A DNA stretch of 59,964 bases. Origin: Thermoflexus hugenholtzii JAD2. GTDB taxonomy: Bacteria; Chloroflexota; Chloroflexia; Chloroflexales; Roseiflexaceae. This document shows, piece after piece, positions 11,120 to 50,335 of the stretch; position 1 is the stretch's first letter, and each line of letters starts with the position of its first letter. Position numbers and translations under genes: made by a program. The stretch covers positions 1 to 59,964 of the forward strand of contig CAMCVW010000018.1 in NCBI GenBank assembly GCA_945881915.1. Reading direction: 5' to 3'. Under the pieces are notes generated by a model that was not told the origin of the DNA, did no database searches, and was given only the letters and a program-made list of their open reading frames with translations.

Positions 11120-11269
11120 ATGGACAATGTGCCAACGGCACCCCACACCGACCAGGATGAGTTTTCACCGGTAGGAACACTCCTATTTGTGATGATTATG
11201 CTCATCGGCTATGTCGTGTATTGGGGCTACATTTGGTTCTTGGTCGTCATTGAACGGGGAGGAAACTAA
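11120..11269 (+). CDS. small single-span subunit of ba3-type cytochrome oxidase (IIa-like)
   Basis: 49 residues with a polar N-terminus (MDNVPTAPHTDQDEFSPVG) and one hydrophobic helix (about residues 19-42). AGAGGAGG lies 6 bases before the ATG. It ends 2 bases before the subunit II gene. Size, topology and position match the IIa subunit of Thermus-type ba3 oxidase, which fills the place of the second helix missing from subunit II. The identification rests on context and topology, not on a sequence signature. Confidence 0.75.
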   Translation: MDNVPTAPHTDQDEFSPVGTLLFVMIMLIGYVVYWGYIWFLVVIERGGN

Positions 11270-15518: not shown

Positions 15519-16352
15519 TCAGTACTTCAGTTTTGCCTGTGCCTTGATCCATGGAAAAACGGTTGAAACCTTCGTATAGACACCCGGATACCGCGCCAGT
15601 GCACAGTCATTGCCCCAACTCACAATCCCAATCTGGATTTTGGTGGCATCTTGCGTCGTAACCAATGGGCCACCACTGTCACCCTGGCAAGAGTCTTTGC
15701 CACCGATTGCATATCCCGCGCAAGCCATGCGACCGGTTATCCCGCCGTCATAGTACGTATTGCACGCACGTTGTGACACCATCGGCACTTGCACCTTGCG
15801 CAACACATTAGAGACTTCGCCGCCGCTTTCCGTTGTGCCCCAGCCCGAGACCGTCGCCATTTTGCTCGCTGTATACAATGGATTGAATGAGGCCGCTGTC
15901 GTGGCAAGCTTGACAACCTTCACCCCCACACTCGGAGTGACAGCCGCGTTGAGCCTGAGTACCGCGACATCAAAATCATACGAATCAGGGTCGTAGCTCG
16001 GATGGACTGCCACCGCACTCACCAGCCGCTGTTGGAAGTATGGATTGAGGTTGTTTTTTGCCAAAGAACCGATATTCTGCAACCCGACATACACCCGGAA
16101 TTTATTCGCGCTATAGGGATCACCAAAGTCATCAACCGAACAGTGCGCCGCAGTCAACACATATTGGTTTGCGATGAGAGAACCGCCACAAATATACCCA
16201 TCGGCCAAAACCAGAACTTGGTACGGGAATTCTGCCATGGTCGCTGCGGTTCCGCCGACAATCTTTGGGCGGGCAATGAGTTGTGCGTGCGCAGATGGGA
16301 ATCGCAGTGAAAGTGTAAAAACCACCATGAGAAACAGTATGAGTCGCTTCAT
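15519..16352 (-). CDS. secreted trypsin-like serine protease, copy A
   Basis: 277-residue S1A protease. Signal peptide about 1-23 (MKRLILFLMVVFTLSLRFPS...AHA), activation site at I31 (IVGG), catalytic triad H70 (LTAAHC), D128 (DFDVAVL) and S226 (GDSGGP). D220 at the bottom of the S1 pocket predicts cleavage after Arg/Lys. The pocket wall reads SWGNDC. GAGGG lies before the ATG at 16352; an upstream in-frame start at 16418 would bury the signal peptide. It is about 89% identical in protein to copy B (31 differences, counted by eye). Such animal-type proteases are uncommon in bacteria. Confidence 0.92.
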   Translation of the reverse strand: MKRLILFLMVVFTLSLRFPSAHAQLIARPKIVGGTAATMAEFPYQVLVLADGYICGGSLIANQYVLTAAHCSVDDFGDPYSANKFRVYVGLQNIGSLAKNNLNPYFQQRLVSAVAVHPSYDPDSYDFDVAVLRLNAAVTPSVGVKVVKLATTAASFNPLYTASKMATVSGWGTTESGGEVSNVLRKVQVPMVSQRACNTYYDGGITGRMACAGYAIGGKDSCQGDSGGPLVTTQDATKIQIGIVSWGNDCALARYPGVYTKVSTVFPWIKAQAKLKY

Positions 16353-16448
16353 CAAACCCTCTTTCCGTGCTTCAACCGTACATAGAGTACAGACGCTGAA
16401 AGTGTCCGATTCGTTCAATTTTGATAACGGAATTTCATCCTGCAGCGG

Positions 16449-16590
16449 CTAGCGTGTACGTGTGGGAGTGCGTGTCCTTTTTGCCGCAGACCCGACCACC
16501 AGTACACTGCCATTTCGTAACCCGATGACACTATTGAACTGCTCTGCTGCAATCGACACCGCGTTATTGGTGAAGGGTATACTCAACTGC
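16449..16590 (-). pseudogene. duplicated 3' fragment of the protease-RCC1 gene
   Basis: Copy of the last part of the fusion gene (17618-17759), including its stop codon, left between the protease copies by the tandem duplication. About 5 of 141 bases differ. It has no start and no coding role is expected. Confidence 0.88.
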
Positions 16591-16647
16591 ATCGACGCAT
16601 TCGCGCTGGTTGCGGCACACTATGCGCAGCAAGAAACACAAAAATAG
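16591..16647 (+). pseudogene. duplicated 3' fragment of the kinase-like gene
   Basis: Copy of 15422-15478, the last codons and stop of the APH-like gene. It has no start of its own. A chance 61-codon frame across the junction (16462-16647) is an artefact of the duplication. Confidence 0.88.
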
Positions 16648-16687
16648 CCCACAGACGCATTGCGTCCGTGGGCTCGTTCGTATCTCC

Positions 16688-17521
16688 TCAGTACGTCAAT
16701 TTTGCCTGTGCCTTGATCCATGGAAAAACGGTTGAAACCTTCGTATAGACACCCGGATACCGCGCCAGTGCACATCCAACGCCATAACTGACAATCCCTA
16801 TTTGGATTTTGGTGGAACCTTGCTTTGTGACCAATGGGCCACCGCTGTCACCCTGGCAAGAGTCTTTGCCACCGATTGCATATCCCGCGCAAGCCATGCG
16901 ACCGGTTATCCCGCCGCCATAGTACGCATTGCACGCAGCAGTTGACACCATCGGCACTTGCACCTTGCGCAACACATTTGAGACGCTGCCGCCGTAGGTC
17001 GTTGTGCCCCAGCCCGAGACCGTCGCCATTTTGCCCGCTGCATACAATGGATTGAATGAGGTTGATGTCTTGGCAAGCTTGACGACCTTCACCCCCACAC
17101 TCGGAGTGACAGCCGCGTTGAGCTTGAGTACCGCGACATCAAAATCTTCCGAATCAGGGTCGTATCTCGCATGGACTGCCACCGCACTCACCAGCCGCTG
17201 TTGGAAGTATGGATTGAGATGGTTTTTTGCTAATGAACCCCTATTCTGCAACCCTGCATACACCCGGAATTTATTCGCGCTATAGGGATCACCAAAGTCA
17301 TCAACCGAACAGTGCGCCGCAGTCAACACATATTGGTTTGCGATGAGAGAACCGCCACACACATACCCATTGACCAAAACCAGAACTTGGTACGGGAATT
17401 CTGCCATGGTCGCTGCGGTACCACCGACAATCTTTGGGCGGGCAATCAGTTGTGCCTGCACAGATGGGAATCGCAGTGAAAGTGTAAAAACCACCATGAG
17501 GAACAGTATGAGTCGCTTCAT
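16688..17521 (-). CDS. secreted trypsin-like serine protease, copy B
   Basis: 277-residue paralogue of copy A with the same signal peptide pattern, IVGG activation site, His-Asp-Ser triad and S1 aspartate. Differences lie mostly in likely surface positions and around the substrate cleft: the pocket wall SWGNDC of copy A is SYGVGC here, and TTESGGEV becomes TTTYGGSV. The rare W-to-Y change at the chymotrypsin-215 position should affect the S2-S4 side of the cleft. The ATG at 17521 has the same GAGGG site as copy A. Probably secreted and active, with shifted preference (inference). Confidence 0.92.
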   Translation of the reverse strand: MKRLILFLMVVFTLSLRFPSVQAQLIARPKIVGGTAATMAEFPYQVLVLVNGYVCGGSLIANQYVLTAAHCSVDDFGDPYSANKFRVYAGLQNRGSLAKNHLNPYFQQRLVSAVAVHARYDPDSEDFDVAVLKLNAAVTPSVGVKVVKLAKTSTSFNPLYAAGKMATVSGWGTTTYGGSVSNVLRKVQVPMVSTAACNAYYGGGITGRMACAGYAIGGKDSCQGDSGGPLVTKQGSTKIQIGIVSYGVGCALARYPGVYTKVSTVFPWIKAQAKLTY

Positions 17522-17617
17522 CAAACCCTCTTTCCGTGCATCTTCCGTAAATGAAGTATAGACGATATCATCGGTCGATTCTTTCAATTTTCACCTAAAA
17601 ACCACAACACACGTCCA

Positions 17618-19396
17618 CTAGCGCGTACGTGTGGGAGTGCGTGTCCTTATTGCCGCAGACCCGACCACCAGTACACTGCCATTTCGTAACCCGATGACAC
17701 TATTGAACTGCCCTGCTGCAATCGACACCGCGTTATTGGTGACGGGGATACTCAACTGCCCCTGAGATTTTTGCCCCCAACCAACCACGGAACCATTGCG
17801 TTTGAGTGCGAGCGAAAATCCATTCCCCGCGCTGATAGCATAGACATCCTTGAGCCCTGGCGGTGGGATTGCTTGCTGAATGCTGTTATTGCCCCACCCG
17901 ATGACCGTTCCCGTGTCGCGCAGGGCAAGTGCGTGATTGGTGCCGGCACTGATGCCGACAATGTGTGAACCAGCGGTGCTGGGAATCGACACTTGGCCAG
18001 CAGTGTTTTTACCCCAGCCTATGACTTTGCCTGAGCTTTTCAGCGCAAGTGAATAGCCATTGCCAGCAGCAACCGCAACAACCCCGTTCAATCCTGCCGG
18101 TTTGCCACTACACTGCTTGCTGAGGTCACTCCCCCAACACAGCACTGACCCCGCTTTGATGGCCAAAACGTGACTTGGACCAGCCGCGATACTGGTCACC
18201 CCGGAATGTGCGGCGATGGGAATGTTGAGCTGCCTATAGTCGTTTGCACCCCAGCCATAGACGCGCCCTGCCCGACTCAACGCTATGGTGTAGTTGTTCC
18301 CTGCTGCAACATCATCGAACAACACTGTTGCGAGCTTGATTGGAATCGTCGACTGCCCTTGCGAGTTAACCCCCCAGGTAACGAGGGTCCCGTTGTAGAG
18401 GGCCGCAACAGAAAAAGAAGCACCGCTAGCGACCCTTTTCACGGCGATCGGCAGCGGGGTGGGCGTCACCGTCGGTGTGCGAGTTCCGGTCGCAATGCGC
18501 GTGGAAGTTCGGGTCGCTGTCTGCGCCTGTGTGTTACTGGCAGTCGGCGTGATACTGGCAGTCGGTGAAGGACCAAGTGCCTCGGTATACGATGTAATCC
18601 AACTTTGAAAAAACGATACCCGCGTATAGATTCCCGGATAATCCGGCCAGGCACACCCTTCGCCGGAACTGACAATCCCCACAACAGTGAATACCGAGGT
18701 ATCTACGGTAAACAACGGTCCGCCGCTGTCACCCTGACACGCATCAATTCCACCGTTGTCATAGTCCCCGGCGCACATCATGCGTGTCGTAATCGGCTGT
18801 GAGATGTTGATGTATGTATCATCACAATGTGAATTGATCACCACAGGCACCGTGACCTTGCGCAAGTTCGATGAAGAACTGCCGCCATAGCTCACCGTTC
18901 CCCACCCTGCAACGGTCGTTATTGCGCCATCAGCATATAACGGCTCTGCCGCTGGTAAGAAACCAAGCTGCGCGACACCCACTTGCGCCGTCATCGTCAT
19001 TGGAGTGGCGAGCTCGAGCAACGCGATATCGTAGTCGTATATTGATGCATCATAGCTGGCATGCGTTATCACGCGTGTGATGGCGCTGGTCTGAGCATAG
19101 GGGTTGCACCCATTACAGCTGCTGTGCATACCCATGGCAACCCGATATTGCGATGCACTCGCACCCGACACGCAATGTGCTGCAGTCATCACCCACGTCG
19201 GGGCTATCAACGCACCACCACATCGGTGGCTGGTGATGCTCCCTGTGTAGTAGATATATGCCATGAATGGAAATTCGTTCGGGGTCGCCTCGGTACCGCC
19301 TACGATTTTTGGGGTAATCAGTGTTTCGGCACGCACACGGATGTGCCAGCCTACCACTACCGAAAGAAGGATAAGACACATAACCAATCGGCGCAT
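17618..19396 (-). CDS. secreted trypsin-like protease fused to an RCC1-type beta-propeller
   Basis: 592 residues. A signal peptide (about 1-23) and S1A domain with IVGG at 31, H74 (MTAAHC), the Asp in YDYDIALLEL and the Ser in ACQGDSGGP, with S1 aspartate present. Next comes a Thr/Pro/Ser-rich linker (about 283-320, e.g. TPTVTPTPLP). The C-terminal part is a run of about seven RCC1-like blades with repeated motifs such as AAGNGYSLALKSSGKVIGWG and SAGTNHALALRDTGTVIGWG. The blades probably bind a substrate or surface. Last residues are RTRTPTRTR. Its 3' end served as one boundary of the tandem duplication. Confidence 0.92.
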   Translation of the reverse strand: MRRLVMCLILLSVVVGWHIRVRAETLITPKIVGGTEATPNEFPFMAYIYYTGSITSHRCGGALIAPTWVMTAAHCVSGASASQYRVAMGMHSSCNGCNPYAQTSAITRVITHASYDASIYDYDIALLELATPMTMTAQVGVAQLGFLPAAEPLYADGAITTVAGWGTVSYGGSSSSNLRKVTVPVVINSHCDDTYINISQPITTRMMCAGDYDNGGIDACQGDSGGPLFTVDTSVFTVVGIVSSGEGCAWPDYPGIYTRVSFFQSWITSYTEALGPSPTASITPTASNTQAQTATRTSTRIATGTRTPTVTPTPLPIAVKRVASGASFSVAALYNGTLVTWGVNSQGQSTIPIKLATVLFDDVAAGNNYTIALSRAGRVYGWGANDYRQLNIPIAAHSGVTSIAAGPSHVLAIKAGSVLCWGSDLSKQCSGKPAGLNGVVAVAAGNGYSLALKSSGKVIGWGKNTAGQVSIPSTAGSHIVGISAGTNHALALRDTGTVIGWGNNSIQQAIPPPGLKDVYAISAGNGFSLALKRNGSVVGWGQKSQGQLSIPVTNNAVSIAAGQFNSVIGLRNGSVLVVGSAAIRTRTPTRTR

Positions 19397-36359: not shown

Positions 36360-39300
36360 TTAGACTCCGACGACGCCCTCGATCCGGTCTTCGATGTCGG
36401 CGTAGATCTCTTGCAGTCTGGCGATGGTCGCTTCGTCGCTCTGCCACAGACCGCGGCTATTTGCCTCGAGGAGGCGCTGGACGGCGGCTTTGGCAGCGTG
36501 AGGATTAGCAGCCATGAAGCGCCGGCGCACATCTTCGTCCATGATGAAGGTGTCCGACATACCGTCGTAGACCCAATTTTCGACCGAATCACCGACGGCA
36601 CTCCAACCCATCACATTGGTAAAGCGATTGGCAATTTCGGTCGCACCCGCATACCCCTGCGCCAGCAATGGCTCAAACCAACGTGGGTTGAGGATTTTGG
36701 TGCGCGCTTCGATAGTAATCATCTGTTTGGCACTGGTGATGGTCGTTTTACCGGTATAGGTTTCGGCATAACTCAACTGCACGGTCCGGCCGCTCTCGTA
36801 ACTCGCTGCCAACTGTACCGCACCACTGTGTCCGTAGTAGTGTTGCATGTCGGTCAAGCCGTACTCGACGCTGTCGATCGCCTGGAATACGTGCTCCACA
36901 GTGCCGAGCAAGCTTCGATAGGTTGCTTGTGCAGCCACGCCATTGCGCTTGCCGCCGTATGCAAAACCGCTACGCTTGATGTAGATGGATGCAAGGTCTG
37001 ATTTACTCTCCCACTGGCTTTCGTCGACCACCATGTCAACTCCGGTACCGTACTCGCCTTGTGCCTGGGTGAACAATCGTGCCGTGGCAGATTCAAACGT
37101 CTGTCCTTGTTCCTGCATCGCTACGACGTGCGCTTTGATGGGATTCATGTCTGCTGGCTCATCGGCTCGCGCAGCGCGGACAATCAAGTTGTCCATCAAG
37201 TCGAGAATCATCGGGAAGTTATCGCGGAAGATGCTGCTGATGTCGAGTACCACATCGACACGGGCCCGACCCAGTTTGTTGAGCGGAACGAGGTCATACC
37301 GGAATATTTTGCCTTGCCCGTCGCGTGCCGGCACTCCGCCAATCAACCCCAGCACCACGCCGATGCTCTCGCCTTCGCTTTTGATGGTGTCGAGTGCCCA
37401 CAACGTCAGCGACACAGTGGACGGCATCACCCCATTGTCGGCGATGTGCGACCGAATCAATTGCTCTGCCATCTGCTGACCGCGCTGCAGTGCTGCGTCA
37501 CTCGGCAAACGCCACGGATCGATTCCATGGATGTTTCGACCACTCGGGAGTGCCGCTGCACCACCACGGATGGGGTCTGCACCATGACCAGGCAAGATGT
37601 ACCCACCCTCGAGTGCATGCATGACAACGTCGATTTCGTCACCACTCTCTTCGAGTCGGATCAACATCTCACGACCATGACTGACCATGTCATTCACATG
37701 CGCAGGGGTTGGCTGATTGAAGTAGTTCTTCCAAAACGTGTCAGACGCTTCGCGTCCATAGACCACCTTCGACACGAACTCGCCGCGCACGGTCGGGGCG
37801 GAGCCGACATCGACGCCGTTTTCGAGGATGGTCTGCAACAGCCCATTACTACCCATCCGGGGAATATCTAGCGCAGCCTCGACCAACGCAATCGATCGAT
37901 CGCGAGAGACGCGTTGGCCCATGACATGCAGCCCGTCCAAAATCAAGCGTTGTTCAAGCTCGTCGAGGTAGCGTGTCAAACGCATCCGATACGCACCGTC
38001 TGGCTCGCCGGCACGGATGGGCACTTCGGGCACCAAGGGAGCCAAATCTACTGCCGGTACATCGCGCTGTAATTGACTACGCAATTGCGCCAATTGCTTA
38101 TACAGACCCGCGCGGGCATAGGGAGGAATGAGGTGGCTAATCACCGCGGCACCACCGCGTCGCTTGGCAATGGCCGATTCTGCCGGGTTATTCAACGGGT
38201 AGAGGTATAACTGCGGCACATCGCCCATGACGATGTCTGGCCAGCATTCACCCGTCAACCCCAACTGCAAGCCCGGCAACCACTCAGCAGTACCGTGCAT
38301 ACCGACGTGGACGATGGCGTCTGCACCCCAGATATCGATAAGGTACCGATAAAACGCGACAAATTGATGATGCGGCGCATAGTCGTGATCAAAGAGCATG
38401 CGCATCGGATCACCAGGGACTGCTAATGGTGGTTGCACCCCGACAAAGACATTGTCTAATTCAAACCCATCGAGGCGGATGGCATCACGCCCAGCAGGTG
38501 CGATATCGCCAGGCATCGCCCCCCACTTGTTATCGATGCGCCGCAGAATCGAATCTTTGATAAATTTTCGCAGGTCGTTTACTGGCACGGCAATGTGTTC
38601 GCCCTGCCCGCCTTCCATCGTCGCCATCCGTTTGGCGAGCGCGTCAGGTGTCGCTGGAATGTCACCAATCTGGTATCCGTCCTGTTTGAGTCGCGTCATC
38701 AACGCATGCAGCGTCGCCGGGACGTTCAACAGCGCAGCAGTGCCCAGCCGACCCAATCCTGGTGGGTAGTTATACACGACGAGGGCGATTTTTCGCTCGT
38801 TTGGTGATTTGCGGCGCAAACTCGTCCATTTTGCGGCGATTGTCGCAACGCGTTCAATCCGGTCCGGCACGGTCACGATGCGATCGTTTTCGATTGCACC
38901 GATCACGATGGGCGATATGCTGCCATCCATTTCGGGTAAGTCATACATAATGACCGACTGCATAGGAGACACACCCTTGTCGGTCCATTGCTCGAGATTT
39001 TGCATCAGCAGGGGTTGTGCAACCATGTAGGGTACGTCGAGCGCGCTCATGATTTCGGCCGATGTTGCGGCGTGTGCACCGGGGCGGGTCGAACCGGCCG
39101 GGCCGCCGACCACCGCAAAACCCATGGTGCTGATGACAAAATCGACTTTTTCTTTGGCGACCCATTCGCGCAAGGCGACGTGCGCCTCAATCCCGCTCAC
39201 AAAGATAGGCAAAACTGCCAACCCTTTTGCCTCGAGTGCGCGGATCAAATCGTTGGGGTAGGTCTGTTCTTGGAGCAAATGCTTGCGGAACACCATCATC

Positions 39301-40010
39301 GCAACCAATGGCTGCCCGCGCCGGTAATGTTTTGTTTTGATTGCCCAGCGAATGTAATCGGTATTGCTGTCGAACAATTCCGTGGTGTCTGGATGGAAGC
39401 AGCCCATCTGCGGAATCATCCGCGGCGGAACAACGGTCACCGAAACACCGAGACAATCGCGCAGAATCAAGCGAATCATCTGCGCCAAATTCGCCGAATC
39501 CGGTTGGTTCCAGTAGATGTTGACACTCAACCACGTGCGGAAGTCTTTGAGCTTTGCAGGCATCAACGGCAACAACTTGGCAGCAGCTTTGGTCAATTTG
39601 GTATAGGCATACAGGGTATCTTCGTCGCGTCCTTTGGTAATCAACCGAAGGATTGCCTGCATGGGCTTGGGCAAACCAGATTTTTTGTTCGGGTCAATCT
39701 GATAATCGCCGACTTTGGTCAGCCCCATGATCTCAGGCATACTCTCATAACAAAAAATCGTCTGCGTGCCGGCACGTTTGAGTTGGTCACCCAACCAATC
39801 CGCCTGATCACGATCATTGATGAGCGAGATAAAGACCACGTCTGCCTGGGCAATGGCTTTTTTGAGTGTCTCATCGTGGTCAGTCACATGCCCATCATGG
39901 AATCGATGAATACGCACGTCGATCCCGCCGGCGGTCAGCAACTTCTGGACTTCGGTCCAGACATGTGCATTGAACCGCTCCATGCCATTGATCATCGTAA
40001 TGGTTTTCAT
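36360..40010 (-). CDS. bchH: magnesium chelatase subunit H (BchH)
   Basis: 1216 residues, the expected size of BchH, the porphyrin-binding catalytic subunit of the three-part enzyme inserting Mg2+ into protoporphyrin IX. The N-terminal DUF3479-type region (MKTITMINGMERFNAHVW...) distinguishes it from cobalt chelatase CobN; the rest is the CobN/Mg-chelatase family core (e.g. VHVGMHGTAEWLPG, LGLTGECWPDIVMG). AAGGAAAACGG precedes the ATG. It lies downstream of bchD on the same strand with a 257-base gap that holds the micropeptide gene on the other strand. Confidence 0.95.
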   Translation of the reverse strand: MKTITMINGMERFNAHVWTEVQKLLTAGGIDVRIHRFHDGHVTDHDETLKKAIAQADVVFISLINDRDQADWLGDQLKRAGTQTIFCYESMPEIMGLTKVGDYQIDPNKKSGLPKPMQAILRLITKGRDEDTLYAYTKLTKAAAKLLPLMPAKLKDFRTWLSVNIYWNQPDSANLAQMIRLILRDCLGVSVTVVPPRMIPQMGCFHPDTTELFDSNTDYIRWAIKTKHYRRGQPLVAMMVFRKHLLQEQTYPNDLIRALEAKGLAVLPIFVSGIEAHVALREWVAKEKVDFVISTMGFAVVGGPAGSTRPGAHAATSAEIMSALDVPYMVAQPLLMQNLEQWTDKGVSPMQSVIMYDLPEMDGSISPIVIGAIENDRIVTVPDRIERVATIAAKWTSLRRKSPNERKIALVVYNYPPGLGRLGTAALLNVPATLHALMTRLKQDGYQIGDIPATPDALAKRMATMEGGQGEHIAVPVNDLRKFIKDSILRRIDNKWGAMPGDIAPAGRDAIRLDGFELDNVFVGVQPPLAVPGDPMRMLFDHDYAPHHQFVAFYRYLIDIWGADAIVHVGMHGTAEWLPGLQLGLTGECWPDIVMGDVPQLYLYPLNNPAESAIAKRRGGAAVISHLIPPYARAGLYKQLAQLRSQLQRDVPAVDLAPLVPEVPIRAGEPDGAYRMRLTRYLDELEQRLILDGLHVMGQRVSRDRSIALVEAALDIPRMGSNGLLQTILENGVDVGSAPTVRGEFVSKVVYGREASDTFWKNYFNQPTPAHVNDMVSHGREMLIRLEESGDEIDVVMHALEGGYILPGHGADPIRGGAAALPSGRNIHGIDPWRLPSDAALQRGQQMAEQLIRSHIADNGVMPSTVSLTLWALDTIKSEGESIGVVLGLIGGVPARDGQGKIFRYDLVPLNKLGRARVDVVLDISSIFRDNFPMILDLMDNLIVRAARADEPADMNPIKAHVVAMQEQGQTFESATARLFTQAQGEYGTGVDMVVDESQWESKSDLASIYIKRSGFAYGGKRNGVAAQATYRSLLGTVEHVFQAIDSVEYGLTDMQHYYGHSGAVQLAASYESGRTVQLSYAETYTGKTTITSAKQMITIEARTKILNPRWFEPLLAQGYAGATEIANRFTNVMGWSAVGDSVENWVYDGMSDTFIMDEDVRRRFMAANPHAAKAAVQRLLEANSRGLWQSDEATIARLQEIYADIEDRIEGVVGV

Positions 40011-40048
40011 TCCGTTTTCCTTCCGGCTGCTACATCACCGTTGAGCTA

Positions 40049-40076
40049 TTGTATTCTGAAAATTACTGCGTATAAT
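40049..40076 (+). promoter_or_regulatory. promoter of the micropeptide gene
   Basis: TTGTAT, 16-base spacer, TATAAT. A TACAAT on the other strand (40048-40053) could be the bchH -10, so the two divergent promoters overlap. Confidence 0.6.
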
Positions 40077-40107
40077 AGAGGCGATCATGCTACATAGGAG
40101 GTGACGT

Positions 40108-40215
40108 ATGGCGCGTACAATCGTCTTGTTGCTGGTAACTTTGGCATTCTTCTTGCCACTGGCATACAGCATTCTGATGACCTGGTTCGCAGGTGCACCA
40201 CAGCAGAGCAAGTAG
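40108..40215 (+). CDS. 35-residue single-span membrane micropeptide next to bchH
   Basis: Sequence begins MARTIVLLLVTLAFFLPLAY and ends in a polar GAPQQSK tail, so one membrane helix (about 5-27). It has every signal of a real gene: promoter TTGTAT-16-TATAAT, AGGAGG 5 bases before the ATG, and an intrinsic terminator 23 bases after the stop. It is divergent from bchH and convergent with bchD. I know no family; by size it recalls small photosystem or assembly subunits, but this is inference from position only. Confidence 0.78.
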   Translation: MARTIVLLLVTLAFFLPLAYSILMTWFAGAPQQSK

Positions 40216-40237
40216 ACTCGGCGGTCCCACCCATCCG

Positions 40238-40269
40238 ACCCATGCAACTATGGTTGTGTGGGTTTTTTT
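40238..40269 (+). terminator. terminator of the micropeptide gene
   Basis: ACCCATGCAAC, TATG loop, GTTGTGTGGGT (two G-T pairs) followed by seven T. It overlaps the end of bchD on the other strand. Confidence 0.85.
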
Positions 40270-42082
40270 ATACAAGACTCACCGCCGTCGCCGCAATATC
40301 GGCGCCAGTCGCGTTAGGCAAATAGATATACTCGCCACTGAGTTTTTCGGCGAGCTTCCGCCCTTCGCCGCGACTGAGGTAGTTACGCTGTGTGTCGATG
40401 ACCACCGCTTTGATGCCTTCGGCAGCAACTGCAGCCGCCAACGTGGCGATCTCGACGTCGATGGGGACATCGTTCTGCAAGCCTTTGTTACCACGACCGT
40501 CCGTCAAGAACAGCGCAACACACTGCTGGATTCCTTTACTCCGCGCTTGCTTGGCAACCTCGATGGTTCCCAGGAGTGCGGCAGCGAGCGGCGTCGTCCC
40601 ACCCGTTGGCAAAATGTCGAGTGCCCGTCGCGCGAGTTCGACACTCTGGGAGGCAGGCAAGAGCACTTCGCAGTGCTCACCACGGAATGCCAATAACGCC
40701 ACCCGATCACGATGGACGTATGCTTGTTGGAGCAATGTCTGCACCGCACCTTTGGCCTGCCGCATCCGATTGAGTGCCATACTGCCGCTGGCATCCACCA
40801 CAAAACAGAACAAGACACCCGCTTTGGAACGGAATTCTTTGACGCGCACGTCGTCGACGCGCAACGAGATTTTGCGTGTGGTCAGATTGTTTTTGTGGCG
40901 CAGGGGTTGCCAGGGGGCAGCGGCACGCAAGGTCGACGGTATGTCAATCCGCGCTCGCCGCGGATCGCCGGCAGTGCTCCGAATGTGTCTGCCGCGCGTA
41001 CCGTTGGTAGCACCGCGCGAACCCGATCGTCCCCGCCGTATGGTGCGGAACGGCAAATCATTTAGATGCAGCGGCAGTTCGGTCAGTAATGCCGCGAGTA
41101 TTTCTTCTTGGGGGGGTGCGAGCTCGTCTGGTTGTGGTTGCTGCTCTGCTTCGGGCTGATCATCGTCCTCGGCTTGTGCCTCGTTACTTGGTGGCGGCGG
41201 TGGCGGCTGTGCCTGCTGCTGGTCTGCAGGTGGCGGTTCCGGCGGTGCGACGTCGCGCGTTGCCCGCGGCAAAATCACCAGACGCGCCGCCACATCGAGG
41301 TCTTCCATACTCACTTCGGAGCGCAAATCGAGTGCAGCAGCAGCACATGCCACTGCGGTGGCATACATATCGACCCGGTGTCCTTCGACTCCGGCCCGTA
41401 ACGCCAAATCGACCAGCAACTGCTGCTGCTCTGGCGCGATGGTCACCCGCTCGAGCAAATCACGGGCCTGTGAAATCAGCTCTGCATCAAGGACTGCTAA
41501 CTCATCCCAGTGCGCATAATCGGGATGGATATGATGGTCCAAAACTTCGTGTCGTTGTGCCGCTGTACTCAGGCTGGGCAACAATACGAGTAACCCTATG
41601 CGATCGAGTAAGTGCCGCCGCGGCAACCCTTCAGCCGGGTCGTACGTGCCGATTAGTCGGAATCTACAGGTAATCTGCTGGCTCATTCCCTCTCGTTCGA
41701 GTTGGACCGTACCAGTATCGAGTGCCCCCAACAAGATATTCACGACTGCATCGGGGAGGAGATTGAGCGCGTCTGCATAGAGCACACCACCATCTGCACG
41801 AGCCAACAAGCCACGTCGCGCTGCCCTATTCCCGGTGCGCAACGTCGCTTCGATGTCGATGCCCCCAAGGAGTGCTTCTTCGTCGCTGCCCAGCGGGAGC
41901 TCGATAAACCCCGTAGAACCAGCGAAGAGCGACACGCTGGCGCGCGCCAAAGAGCTCTTGCCTGAGCCAACAGGAGCGCCAATAGCGACCCCGCCCAAGC
42001 GTGGATCTACTGCCAATATTCGGATTGCTTCGAGCGCTCCGTCGATTCCGACCAGACCGGCCATCGGCATGGGATGTGTCAT
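40268..42082 (-). CDS. bchD: magnesium chelatase subunit D (BchD)
   Basis: 604 residues. N-terminal AAA+ domain with Walker A GAPVGSGKSS (35-44); its Walker B reads YADALNLL, with Ala where BchI has the catalytic Glu, so it probably binds but does not hydrolyse ATP. A Pro/Glu-rich linker (PPADQQQAQPPPPPP then acidic) leads to a von Willebrand A domain with MIDAS motif DASGSM and TDGRGNKG. BchD forms the motor with BchI and docks on BchH. ATG at 42082 is preferred over the in-frame start at 42115. Confidence 0.94.
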   Translation of the reverse strand: MTHPMPMAGLVGIDGALEAIRILAVDPRLGGVAIGAPVGSGKSSLARASVSLFAGSTGFIELPLGSDEEALLGGIDIEATLRTGNRAARRGLLARADGGVLYADALNLLPDAVVNILLGALDTGTVQLEREGMSQQITCRFRLIGTYDPAEGLPRRHLLDRIGLLVLLPSLSTAAQRHEVLDHHIHPDYAHWDELAVLDAELISQARDLLERVTIAPEQQQLLVDLALRAGVEGHRVDMYATAVACAAAALDLRSEVSMEDLDVAARLVILPRATRDVAPPEPPPADQQQAQPPPPPPSNEAQAEDDDQPEAEQQPQPDELAPPQEEILAALLTELPLHLNDLPFRTIRRGRSGSRGATNGTRGRHIRSTAGDPRRARIDIPSTLRAAAPWQPLRHKNNLTTRKISLRVDDVRVKEFRSKAGVLFCFVVDASGSMALNRMRQAKGAVQTLLQQAYVHRDRVALLAFRGEHCEVLLPASQSVELARRALDILPTGGTTPLAAALLGTIEVAKQARSKGIQQCVALFLTDGRGNKGLQNDVPIDVEIATLAAAVAAEGIKAVVIDTQRNYLSRGEGRKLAEKLSGEYIYLPNATGADIAATAVSLV

Positions 42083-42528
42083 CGTGTATATCCTGTCCAC
42101 ACAGGGAATTCGCAAGTGTCGTTGTACGGGTGCATGTCGTATAAAACAATTATCACGGCATGCTGGGGAATCTTTTGGGAGACAGATGCATACTAATCGT
42201 CAGAATTCGTGGTGTGTTGAATGTGCCACGCTCTATCTGATTCACGGCTTTCGTATGGCGTAACAGACTACTTGAACGCTATTATAGCACCGCGCTCTTT
42301 TGTTGCACGATACATATACAAAACAATACATGCACAATCCTTCTACAGAAAATGAATAGCTGTTATTTTGGACATTTTTTATGCATAAATTGCCTACAAT
42401 TGCGGCGAATGATGTGCAAAATATGTGCAACGAAGCGCGTATGACGCCGACCCATGCGTGGCATTTGCGTGTATTTTGGTATGATAGAAGGAGCCAGACT
42501 TGGCATATCGTACTAGAACGAGTTGTGC
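42083..42528. other. 446-base intergenic region
   Basis: AT-rich stretch between divergent bchD and the FMN reductase gene. No gene is seen. It must contain the bchD promoter, which I cannot pinpoint, and an extended -10 for the next gene. Confidence 0.5.
42477..42485 (+). promoter_or_regulatory. extended -10 TGGTATGAT
   Basis: TG, one base, TATGAT, about 44 bases before the FMN reductase start; no -35 match. Confidence 0.4.
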
Positions 42529-46545: not shown

Positions 46546-48336
46546 TTACGGACGAAACGCCAAATCTGCCACAAATAAATCACCATACAACTGCTCGCGC
46601 TGCCTTATCACTTCGTCGTTCCACCCCGACAGATACGGTGGTGCAACCTCGTGAATGCGCTTTATAACTGTGTGTTGTGAGGGCGTCACGACGAGGTCAT
46701 CAACTGCACACAAGGACTGTGTGAGGATGAGGTTTGATGTACGGTAGACCTCACGTTTGTCGGCTGGATTACTCCCACCAGCAACGCGCTGATCGACAGG
46801 GTGCGCTAGGACCAAGTTCCCGATGCTATCCGTCAGTTCATTTCCGCCATAGATGGACATAGGATTGATGTGTTCGATGTCATACCCTAACTTTGATTGA
46901 GCCTTTGTCGCTGCACTGGCATAAAGCATCGCAGAAAGTTCGGGCACCGCAGCTACAGCAGCATCAATTTGAATCTTACGGCTTATGCGCGCCAGAATAT
47001 ACCGAATTCGCTTTTTGTCATTACTGCGTCGAGTCCGCAAACCCCCTATGTTCAAGCGAAGCATTGCCAAGAGTCGCACATGATCACCGTGAGCACATAC
47101 TGATGCAGCACGAATCTGATCGTATGTTGCATGCGTTGGAAGCATCCGCACCGCAAGACACCACGCAGGCACCAAGCGTTCGTATTCCTGAGGACGTTCC
47201 TTGGCAAGAAGTGACAAAATGGTCCGATCATCAACAAATCGACCTAAAATTTCGAAACTCTCTTTGGCCAAATGAGCTCCTGCCAACAGAATAGGATAGT
47301 TCTGGACTGCGCCGAAATACCTCGAACCTTGTGTGACACGGGTATCTTCGCCACGTGGTGTTTTCCCCAAATCAATTGACCTCAGATACGTCGCCTGGAC
47401 GGGAAGTGACCGAGCAAAGCGAATGGACTCTGCTTCGCCCGTCAATTCAGCCCGCCACTTATCTCGAATATCACGATTAGAGACATTCTCCCCTCGCAGT
47501 GCAAACATCATTGCTCGCAAAAGGTACTCAATGCTTCGAATGCGTCCAGTCTTACAGAGATACAGTGTCGCATTTGCTATGTCCCAATCTGTAGAAACGC
47601 TATCCAGGAACGCCTCATTGCTTACTTTTTGGAAAATGACGTTTTTGATTAAATCTGCACTACTCAACCCCAAACCACGGTTATTTATTTTTTCAAATAT
47701 ATCAACGGCCATCTCTGTATTTGGAAGCTCAAGTCTCACCATAAATATACGGTCGACAATCTTCTGATACAGCTCTGGGATGTCGACAACATTTGGCCAC
47801 TCGTCATCCAAATATGCGTTTATTGTGTCGTAGGCCTCCTTGATGTTTTCACGGGTCCACCCATTGATATCAGGTTGTTCACGACTGTGTATATAGGCCT
47901 CAACGAGTGCGACGCCTTCCGCTGCGACCGTTACCTTTGCTCGCAGCCCGTCAGCGGAACTCCCGCGTACTTCACGCATTATGAGTCCAGCCAGTCGGCT
48001 TGCTGTGAACTGCAAGCCAGCGTTCACATTCATATGTGGGATCTGCATGAACCGTTTGTGCAAGGCAATCAACAACAGAAGAAGCGTCGTAACACGTTGT
48101 TGGCCGTCAACCAGGATGTAATCCTCGCTCGTTGACCCGTATGACACGATCACCTGCCCTAGTAAATAGACAGGACTTCCGGACTCAAGAAATTCGTGCA
48201 CGTCCTCCAAAAGTTGCTTGACCTGCTCCTCCTTCCATGCATACCCACGCTGAAAATCGGGAACCGCGTACGACTTCTGAAAAAAGTCATGGATTGATAA
48301 ACATGGAGACTGTGGAATGAGCAATGGCGATGACAT
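46546..48336 (-). CDS. DUF262/DUF1524 protein (GmrSD-like, possible anti-phage nuclease)
   Basis: 596 residues in the GmrSD layout: N-terminal DUF262 with VPDFQRGYAW and the DGQQR motif (77-81), which in GmrS-type proteins binds and hydrolyses nucleotide, and C-terminal HNH-like DUF1524 with IEHINP (487-492) and SIGNL. Single-chain GmrSD proteins are type IV restriction enzymes acting on modified phage DNA. The gene is visibly more AT-rich than its neighbours, suggesting horizontal gain. No partner gene or methyltransferase is adjacent, and it interrupts the bch region. Confidence 0.85.
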   Translation of the reverse strand: MSSPLLIPQSPCLSIHDFFQKSYAVPDFQRGYAWKEEQVKQLLEDVHEFLESGSPVYLLGQVIVSYGSTSEDYILVDGQQRVTTLLLLLIALHKRFMQIPHMNVNAGLQFTASRLAGLIMREVRGSSADGLRAKVTVAAEGVALVEAYIHSREQPDINGWTRENIKEAYDTINAYLDDEWPNVVDIPELYQKIVDRIFMVRLELPNTEMAVDIFEKINNRGLGLSSADLIKNVIFQKVSNEAFLDSVSTDWDIANATLYLCKTGRIRSIEYLLRAMMFALRGENVSNRDIRDKWRAELTGEAESIRFARSLPVQATYLRSIDLGKTPRGEDTRVTQGSRYFGAVQNYPILLAGAHLAKESFEILGRFVDDRTILSLLAKERPQEYERLVPAWCLAVRMLPTHATYDQIRAASVCAHGDHVRLLAMLRLNIGGLRTRRSNDKKRIRYILARISRKIQIDAAVAAVPELSAMLYASAATKAQSKLGYDIEHINPMSIYGGNELTDSIGNLVLAHPVDQRVAGGSNPADKREVYRTSNLILTQSLCAVDDLVVTPSQHTVIKRIHEVAPPYLSGWNDEVIRQREQLYGDLFVADLAFRP

Positions 48337-49546: not shown

Positions 49547-50335
49547 CTACACTGCTGCGGCAGCCTGATGATGTATCCGATACGAGTTTATGACGAAGCG
49601 GCGTTCGTACGGCATCACCGTATCGAAATCAGGCCATTCTCCATGCGCCCATTCTGCTACCTTTGCCAAGGTAGCATCCAAAAGAGTCGGTTCAATCGCC
49701 CACGTCTCGGGATCGGTGCGGCTTTGCATCTGTGCCAGCATTTGTGCGGGCGATGCGTAGGCCTGCCAGCTCGCCGCGGTGTCTTCGGGCAACGATTCGG
49801 CCCCCATCCGTGCGAGGAACTGCTGTTTGGCTGCACCAGCACCTGGAGGACGAATACCAGGCGACAACGCCATGATGACCTCACGCATACGATTCCGCAT
49901 GCGCATTGCTGGCGACGTCGGATCGTTCCAGTCGCGTCCTTCGATGAACAACCCACCTTCACGGATGACACGTACGGATTCGCGCAGGACCTCACGCCAG
50001 TCGCTGGCGTGATGCAGCACGTGTACTGCCAGGGTTGCATCGAAGCTTCCACGTGCAAATGGCATGGCCATCATATCGGCTACGAGGAGTCGGTCGAGTC
50101 CGCGTTGTGCTGCACCGTGCAACATCCCCGGCGAAACGTCGAATCCTACTACTGTACACCCGTTTGCAACAACTGGTGCCGCAATCCGTCCCGTGCCAAT
50201 GCCTATTTCCAAAATACGACCACCGAGACCGACCTGGCTGACAAGGTAGCGACCGATATCTGTCGAGACAGACGCGTCATGCACGTGGATGTCGTCGTAG
50301 TTGGCTGCTACTTTTTGAAAATCAAATTTGCTCAT
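49547..50335 (-). CDS. class I SAM-dependent methyltransferase in the bchI operon
   Basis: 262 residues with motif I LEIGIGTGRIAAPV, a post-I aspartate in VVGFDVSPGM and motif III around LRESVRVIREGGLFI. The fold is UbiE-like rather than obviously BchM. It lies 14 bases after the PucC-like gene and 25 bases before bchI, so it is expressed with pigment genes. BchM, which methylates Mg-protoporphyrin IX directly after the chelatase, is not otherwise seen in this window, so this is a candidate for that step or for another pigment or lipid methylation. Confidence 0.8.
   Translation of the reverse strand: MSKFDFQKVAANYDDIHVHDASVSTDIGRYLVSQVGLGGRILEIGIGTGRIAAPVVANGCTVVGFDVSPGMLHGAAQRGLDRLLVADMMAMPFARGSFDATLAVHVLHHASDWREVLRESVRVIREGGLFIEGRDWNDPTSPAMRMRNRMREVIMALSPGIRPPGAGAAKQQFLARMGAESLPEDTAASWQAYASPAQMLAQMQSRTDPETWAIEPTLLDATLAKVAEWAHGEWPDFDTVMPYERRFVINSYRIHHQAAAAV

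Follow-up and report, generated by a model that had tools for sequence, protein, structure and literature searches.

What is encoded in the short gap between the magnesium chelatase genes bchH and bchD of the window, by which we mean the whole 59,964-nucleotide stretch of DNA analysed here? A preliminary description had reported a membrane micropeptide there, with TTGTAT 16 nt ahead of TATAAT, then AGGAGG, ATG, a stop codon and a hairpin. Each of these elements was found in place when the sequence was read again, and the gene, called Y below, is laid out with its neighbours as follows.

36360..40010, minus strand: bchH, magnesium chelatase subunit H (TIGR02025 above cutoff), conserved divergent neighbour of Y
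40011..40107, no strand: divergent intergenic region of 97 bp between the start codons of bchH and Y, a shared promoter region
40049..40054, plus strand: candidate −35 box TTGTAT, 3/6 to consensus, with a 16-nt spacer to TATAAT
40071..40076, plus strand: perfect −10 box TATAAT, read directly
40096..40101, plus strand: Shine-Dalgarno sequence AGGAGG, 6 nt before the ATG, read directly
40108..40215, plus strand: Y micro-ORF of 35 aa, ATG at 40108 and stop codon TAG at 40213-40215, encoding MARTIVLLLVTLAFFLPLAYSILMTWFAGAPQQSK
40237..40264, plus strand: intrinsic terminator hairpin followed by a T run, from a pattern scan and folding
40268..42115, minus strand: bchD, magnesium chelatase subunit D (TIGR02031 above cutoff), convergent neighbour in the window's genus only

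The micro-ORF is a real gene

The Y micro-ORF is a real gene. In 20 versions of the 60-kb window generated by a first-order Markov model, no ORF had AGGAGG, ATG, a length of 20-60 aa and a strong transmembrane segment together. The real window has two such ORFs, Y and one beside the cox genes. Folding gives the terminator hairpin an 11-bp stem with z = −2.3; in the 1-kb pattern scan, 1.1 terminator-like patterns are expected by chance. The promoter scanner made no call for the Y promoter because the −35 box has just three of the six consensus positions. The preliminary description also had the promoters of Y and bchH overlapping, which is plausible because the divergent start codons are only 97 bp apart.

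The frame has been kept in all seven members of the genus in which the bchD-bchH gap is assembled, the window genome included. The other six peptides, all at the bchD-bchH gap, are 51-77% identical to that of the window. The overall pN/pS is 0.44 for all pairs of the seven species, and pairwise dN/dS is 0.10-0.50 for the pairs with unsaturated dS. When the changes that separate diverged pairs were placed at random, a stop codon appeared in 56-64% of trials, and there were nearly always more amino-acid changes than observed. By these substitution patterns, the Y frame is under purifying selection. The preliminary description had proposed a translated search of relatives for conservation of the frame, and the outcome, an open frame with a synonymous excess in 7/7 species, bears it out. 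The start codon is conserved in the alignment of the seven species, the purine-rich ribosome site is kept in all of them, and the TGCGTA columns that run into the −10 box are invariant, with the full TATAAT in four. The candidate −35 box is weakly conserved in the same alignment. In two species (G005 and G003), the terminator hairpin has kept its position with a different sequence.

Homology to protein Y of the reaction center-light harvesting complex

What is the peptide? Neither Pfam nor NCBIfam has a model for it, and NCBIfam has none for its Roseiflexus counterpart described below. It has no Pfam match to the LH alpha/beta family (PF00556); the LHC match of the genome lies elsewhere. A search of the PDB (177,635 sequences) with the peptide alone gave a single match, 8hju_Y, with E = 0.11; chain Y was thus matched and 8hju_X, subunit X, was not. 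The matched chain is 'protein Y' of the R. castenholzii RC-LH, seen by cryo-EM in 2023 (8HJU chain Y; PMC10516601). The same subunit has been named 'protein I', with MS/MS support and a function called unknown (PMC10432797). It is one helix located near TM5 of RC-L and the membrane helix of the cytochrome, with which it holds keto-γ-carotene, and on the cytoplasmic side it forms hydrogen bonds with RC-L (PMC10516601). The structures of this complex are 8HJU, 8HJV, 8IUG, 8IUN, 8J5O, and 8J5P.

Since an E-value of 0.11 is insufficient alone, further homology tests were run. Roseiflexus genomes hold obvious protein Y genes, and a profile was built from these without any sequence from the window's genus. 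With this Roseiflexus-only profile, the 3.1 Mb window genome yields a single match, the window peptide (E = 6.3e-5), and counterpart peptides in three further species are also recovered. When run on the small ORFs of the window and of 19 bchH loci, the profile selects bchH-adjacent peptides only. In the other direction, a genus-only profile recovers the Roseiflexus Y of genome G019 (E = 8e-4), but its narrow scope leaves the PDB entry of R. castenholzii Y out of reach (E = 1.5). The score of the window peptide against G019 Y has z = 9.6 over full shuffles and z = 6.6 over helix-preserving shuffles. Only one in 20,000 of the latter equals it, so the likeness to Y goes beyond composition. Profiles that join the groups reach related peptides in four further genera (g3, g5, g7, and g8). 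The joint family profile matches 8hju_Y end to end, over residues 1-39, with E = 1e-15, a value that owes most to the Roseiflexus members and gives no independent support for the window's genus.

Identity to the Y peptides outside the genus is about 26-43%. Being short and hydrophobic, the peptide shows only modest pairwise similarity to R. castenholzii Y. Both groups have in common a FLPLxxSxxxTW core at nearly equal distance from the start. In the broad Y alignment the Trp is invariant and the preceding Thr nearly so (Thr25 and Trp26 in the window peptide, aligned with Thr27 and Trp28 of R. castenholzii Y). The single hydrophobic helix of the preliminary description agrees with the AlphaFold2 model, in which residues 2-28 form one helix (mean pLDDT 84.5). 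The charges at the ends are few, Arg3 and Lys35, with no clear positive-inside signal. The orientation reported for Roseiflexus, N-terminus periplasmic and C-terminus cytoplasmic, is not obviously favoured by Arg3.

We conclude that the peptide is very probably the orthologue of protein Y (protein I, formerly TM7), the single-helix RC-LH subunit of the Roseiflexaceae with fused pufLM. The homology strongly supports the earlier guess of a small photosystem subunit. The same guess had called the subunit unrecognised, which does not hold, as the R. castenholzii orthologue was modelled by cryo-EM and described in two papers in 2023 (PMC10516601 and PMC10432797). The window peptide is thus an added member of a kind already known from structures, though unannotated and with its function unproven.

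Comparison with the known small subunits

The window peptide and R. castenholzii Y are alike in length (35 and 39 aa), in the single helix, in the FLPLxxSxxxTW core, and in hosts that have fused pufLM, a tetraheme cytochrome, and protein Z. In both groups Y has its own gene with a Shine-Dalgarno sequence and a CGTATAAT −10 region, as seen in Roseiflexus G021. However, the window gene is divergent from bchH, whereas the Roseiflexus gene is located among unrelated genes. The window peptide also differs from R. castenholzii Y in a shorter N-terminus that does not have Trp3, in a C-terminus without the acidic pair, and in the residue aligned with the carotenoid-contacting Met11, which is Leu9; in other Roseiflexus Y peptides this position is Leu or Phe.

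The window genome encodes the expected partners. Its fused pufLM is a protein of 642 aa with the R. castenholzii RC as best PDB match (E = 1e-252), its PufC has four CxxCH motifs (tetraheme) and an N-terminal membrane helix, and it has an LH polypeptide, found by a family profile match. Protein Z was located at G000:C5:24358-24489 (E = 2.8e-12) by a Roseiflexus query confirmed as Z, and almost every RC-bearing Roseiflexaceae genome searched has a detectable Z. Protein Z (protein h) is like Y a small one-helix RC subunit, but it has another sequence and is encoded apart from Y, within the puf/bch cluster of contig C5. Subunit X (TMx) resembles Y as an unannotated small subunit of one helix and similar length, but no sequence similarity between them was found. 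It was located at L117:10034-10132 in Roseiflexus G013, where a match to 8hju_X confirmed its identity. Five Roseiflexus genomes have it in all; the X query found it in no other genus of the family, the window's genus included. X is therefore either lineage-specific or too diverged to see, which leaves Y and Z as the apparent core small subunits. Subunit X is thought to gate the quinone channel. In Rhodobacter, PufX and PufY (protein U) are small helices at the opening of the RC-LH ring, and no search in this analysis gave a match to either. Roseiflexus is reported to use elements that differ from both (PMC10516601).

Distribution and gene neighbourhood in the Roseiflexaceae

Y is present in seven of the nine Roseiflexaceae genera. 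It is divergent from bchH in three of them (g1, g3, and g7), with 89-97 bp between the start codons. The preliminary description had placed the peptide in the bchD-bchH gap, and this holds for the window's genus (7/7) but not beyond it. In g3 and g7, the gene beyond Y is a homologue of the window methyltransferase gene at 49547-50335, followed by a PucC-like gene, and bchD is not there; hence, the linked neighbour is bchH rather than bchD. In g6, the bchD-bchH arrangement is kept without Y between, and Y is on another contig than bchH. In g5, Y adjoins a PucC-family gene, and in Roseiflexus it is found among genes without an evident photosynthetic role, away from bchH. From these arrangements, the Y-bchH linkage is older than the genus and is not universal. 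Of the named relatives whose BchH is 75-94% identical, most are MAGs with the label Roseiflexaceae, and several carry lake isolate names.

All RC-positive genomes with an assembled bchH have Y. Three genomes (G004, G009, and G011) have neither RC nor Y, and two of these, G009 and G011, are more than 90% complete. Four RC-positive genomes gave no Y match (G001, G010, G020, and G022). BchH was detected in none of the four, so the missing Y is probably an assembly gap where Y would adjoin bchH. One genome that is 82% complete (G080) has Y without a full RC. The gaps at bchH loci L071-L076, L078, and L080 contain no Y, and the Chloroflexaceae-like genomes (f4) gave no credible Y in a search that could miss a very diverged one.

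Some candidates were rejected. Weak matches in other families (E > 0.005; G124, G041, G082, G027, and others) are fragments of frames that are longer or do not match, and the first matches in G011, G029, G032, and G039 either belong to larger proteins or are non-coding. Separately, a member of the window's genus that is 94% complete (G009, locus L122) has BchH but no detectable RC, Y, or Z, a possible case of partial loss of phototrophy or of an assembly gap.

Alternative explanations

Could the frame be a chance or non-coding ORF within the bchH regulatory leader? Its intergenic location and weak −35 box would fit, but the frame is open in seven species with a synonymous excess, the start, Shine-Dalgarno sequence, and terminator position are conserved, and the Markov windows hold no comparable ORF, so that this explanation is refuted for practical purposes and its probability is negligible. 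A coding frame might still belong to an unrelated single-helix peptide that resembles Y merely as one hydrophobic helix resembles another, as the single-sequence E-value and the low identity outside the genus could suggest. We consider this highly improbable. The peptides are each other's sole or best match at genome scale, shuffles that preserve the helix almost never equal the score, the intermediates in g3, g5, g7, and g8 join the groups, and several of the Y-like peptides found by profile adjoin photosynthesis genes.

The peptide might instead serve magnesium chelatase or bacteriochlorophyll delivery, as an assembly or docking factor of BchH rather than a resident RC-LH subunit. Its divergent pairing with bchH in three genera and the adjoining PucC-like gene in g5 point that way. 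Against this stand the sequence orthology to a subunit resolved within the RC-LH (PMC10516601), the location of Y away from bchH in Roseiflexus and g6, and G009, in which BchH is kept but no RC was detected and the peptide is missing. We judge such a factor very unlikely. For the role in pigment synthesis offered in the preliminary description, adjacency is the only support, and Roseiflexus keeps Y away from bchH.

Proposed role of protein Y

The evidence on the peptide of the window organism is from sequence and genomic context, and its structural position is drawn from R. castenholzii. Y would most likely insert into the H-less, fused-pufLM RC-LH as a single helix, next to RC-L TM5 and the membrane helix at the N-terminus of the tetraheme cytochrome. 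By orthology, its position, contacts, and stabilising role are most likely those of the R. castenholzii subunit. Judged from the alignment, the conserved function is more likely the contact with RC-L than that with the carotenoid, since Met11 is not conserved while the Thr-Trp near the cytoplasmic end of the helix is. This near-invariant Thr-Trp end and the Pro/Phe core are candidate functional contacts of Y.

The short divergent region suggests co-expression of Y with bchH. Y would be transcribed alone from a short promoter region, back-to-back with bchH, and because the two genes would use this shared region, we infer only that the subunit may be inducible together with the first enzyme on the committed path to bacteriochlorophyll. 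The bchH-Y pairing offers a simple handle on co-regulation. A further idea, which we regard as unlikely, is that Y expressed from the shared bchH promoter region acts as a pacing or assembly factor by which RC assembly is coupled to the supply of bacteriochlorophyll, beyond any part as a passive RC subunit, and that the bchH-Y pair is an ancestral regulatory unit of the Roseiflexaceae, broken up in Roseiflexus.

Protein Y was previously known from structural papers on one Roseiflexus species and was unannotated there. It is a conserved gene across phototrophic Roseiflexaceae, members from freshwater lakes included, and is under purifying selection. What is added here is the identity of the peptide, its spread through the family, and its linkage to bchH rather than bchD.

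Other features of the window

A second membrane micro-ORF led by a Shine-Dalgarno sequence, of 49 aa, is located at 11120-11269 on the plus strand, directly upstream of a CoxII-like gene and cox1. It probably encodes a small subunit of cytochrome oxidase; no Pfam family is above cutoff for it. Between bchD and bchI, at 46546-48336 on the minus strand, there is a gene for a GmrSD-type restriction endonuclease. Three tandem genes for trypsin-family serine proteases are found at 15519-19396 on the minus strand; two are near-identical copies of 299 aa, and one has RCC1 repeats.
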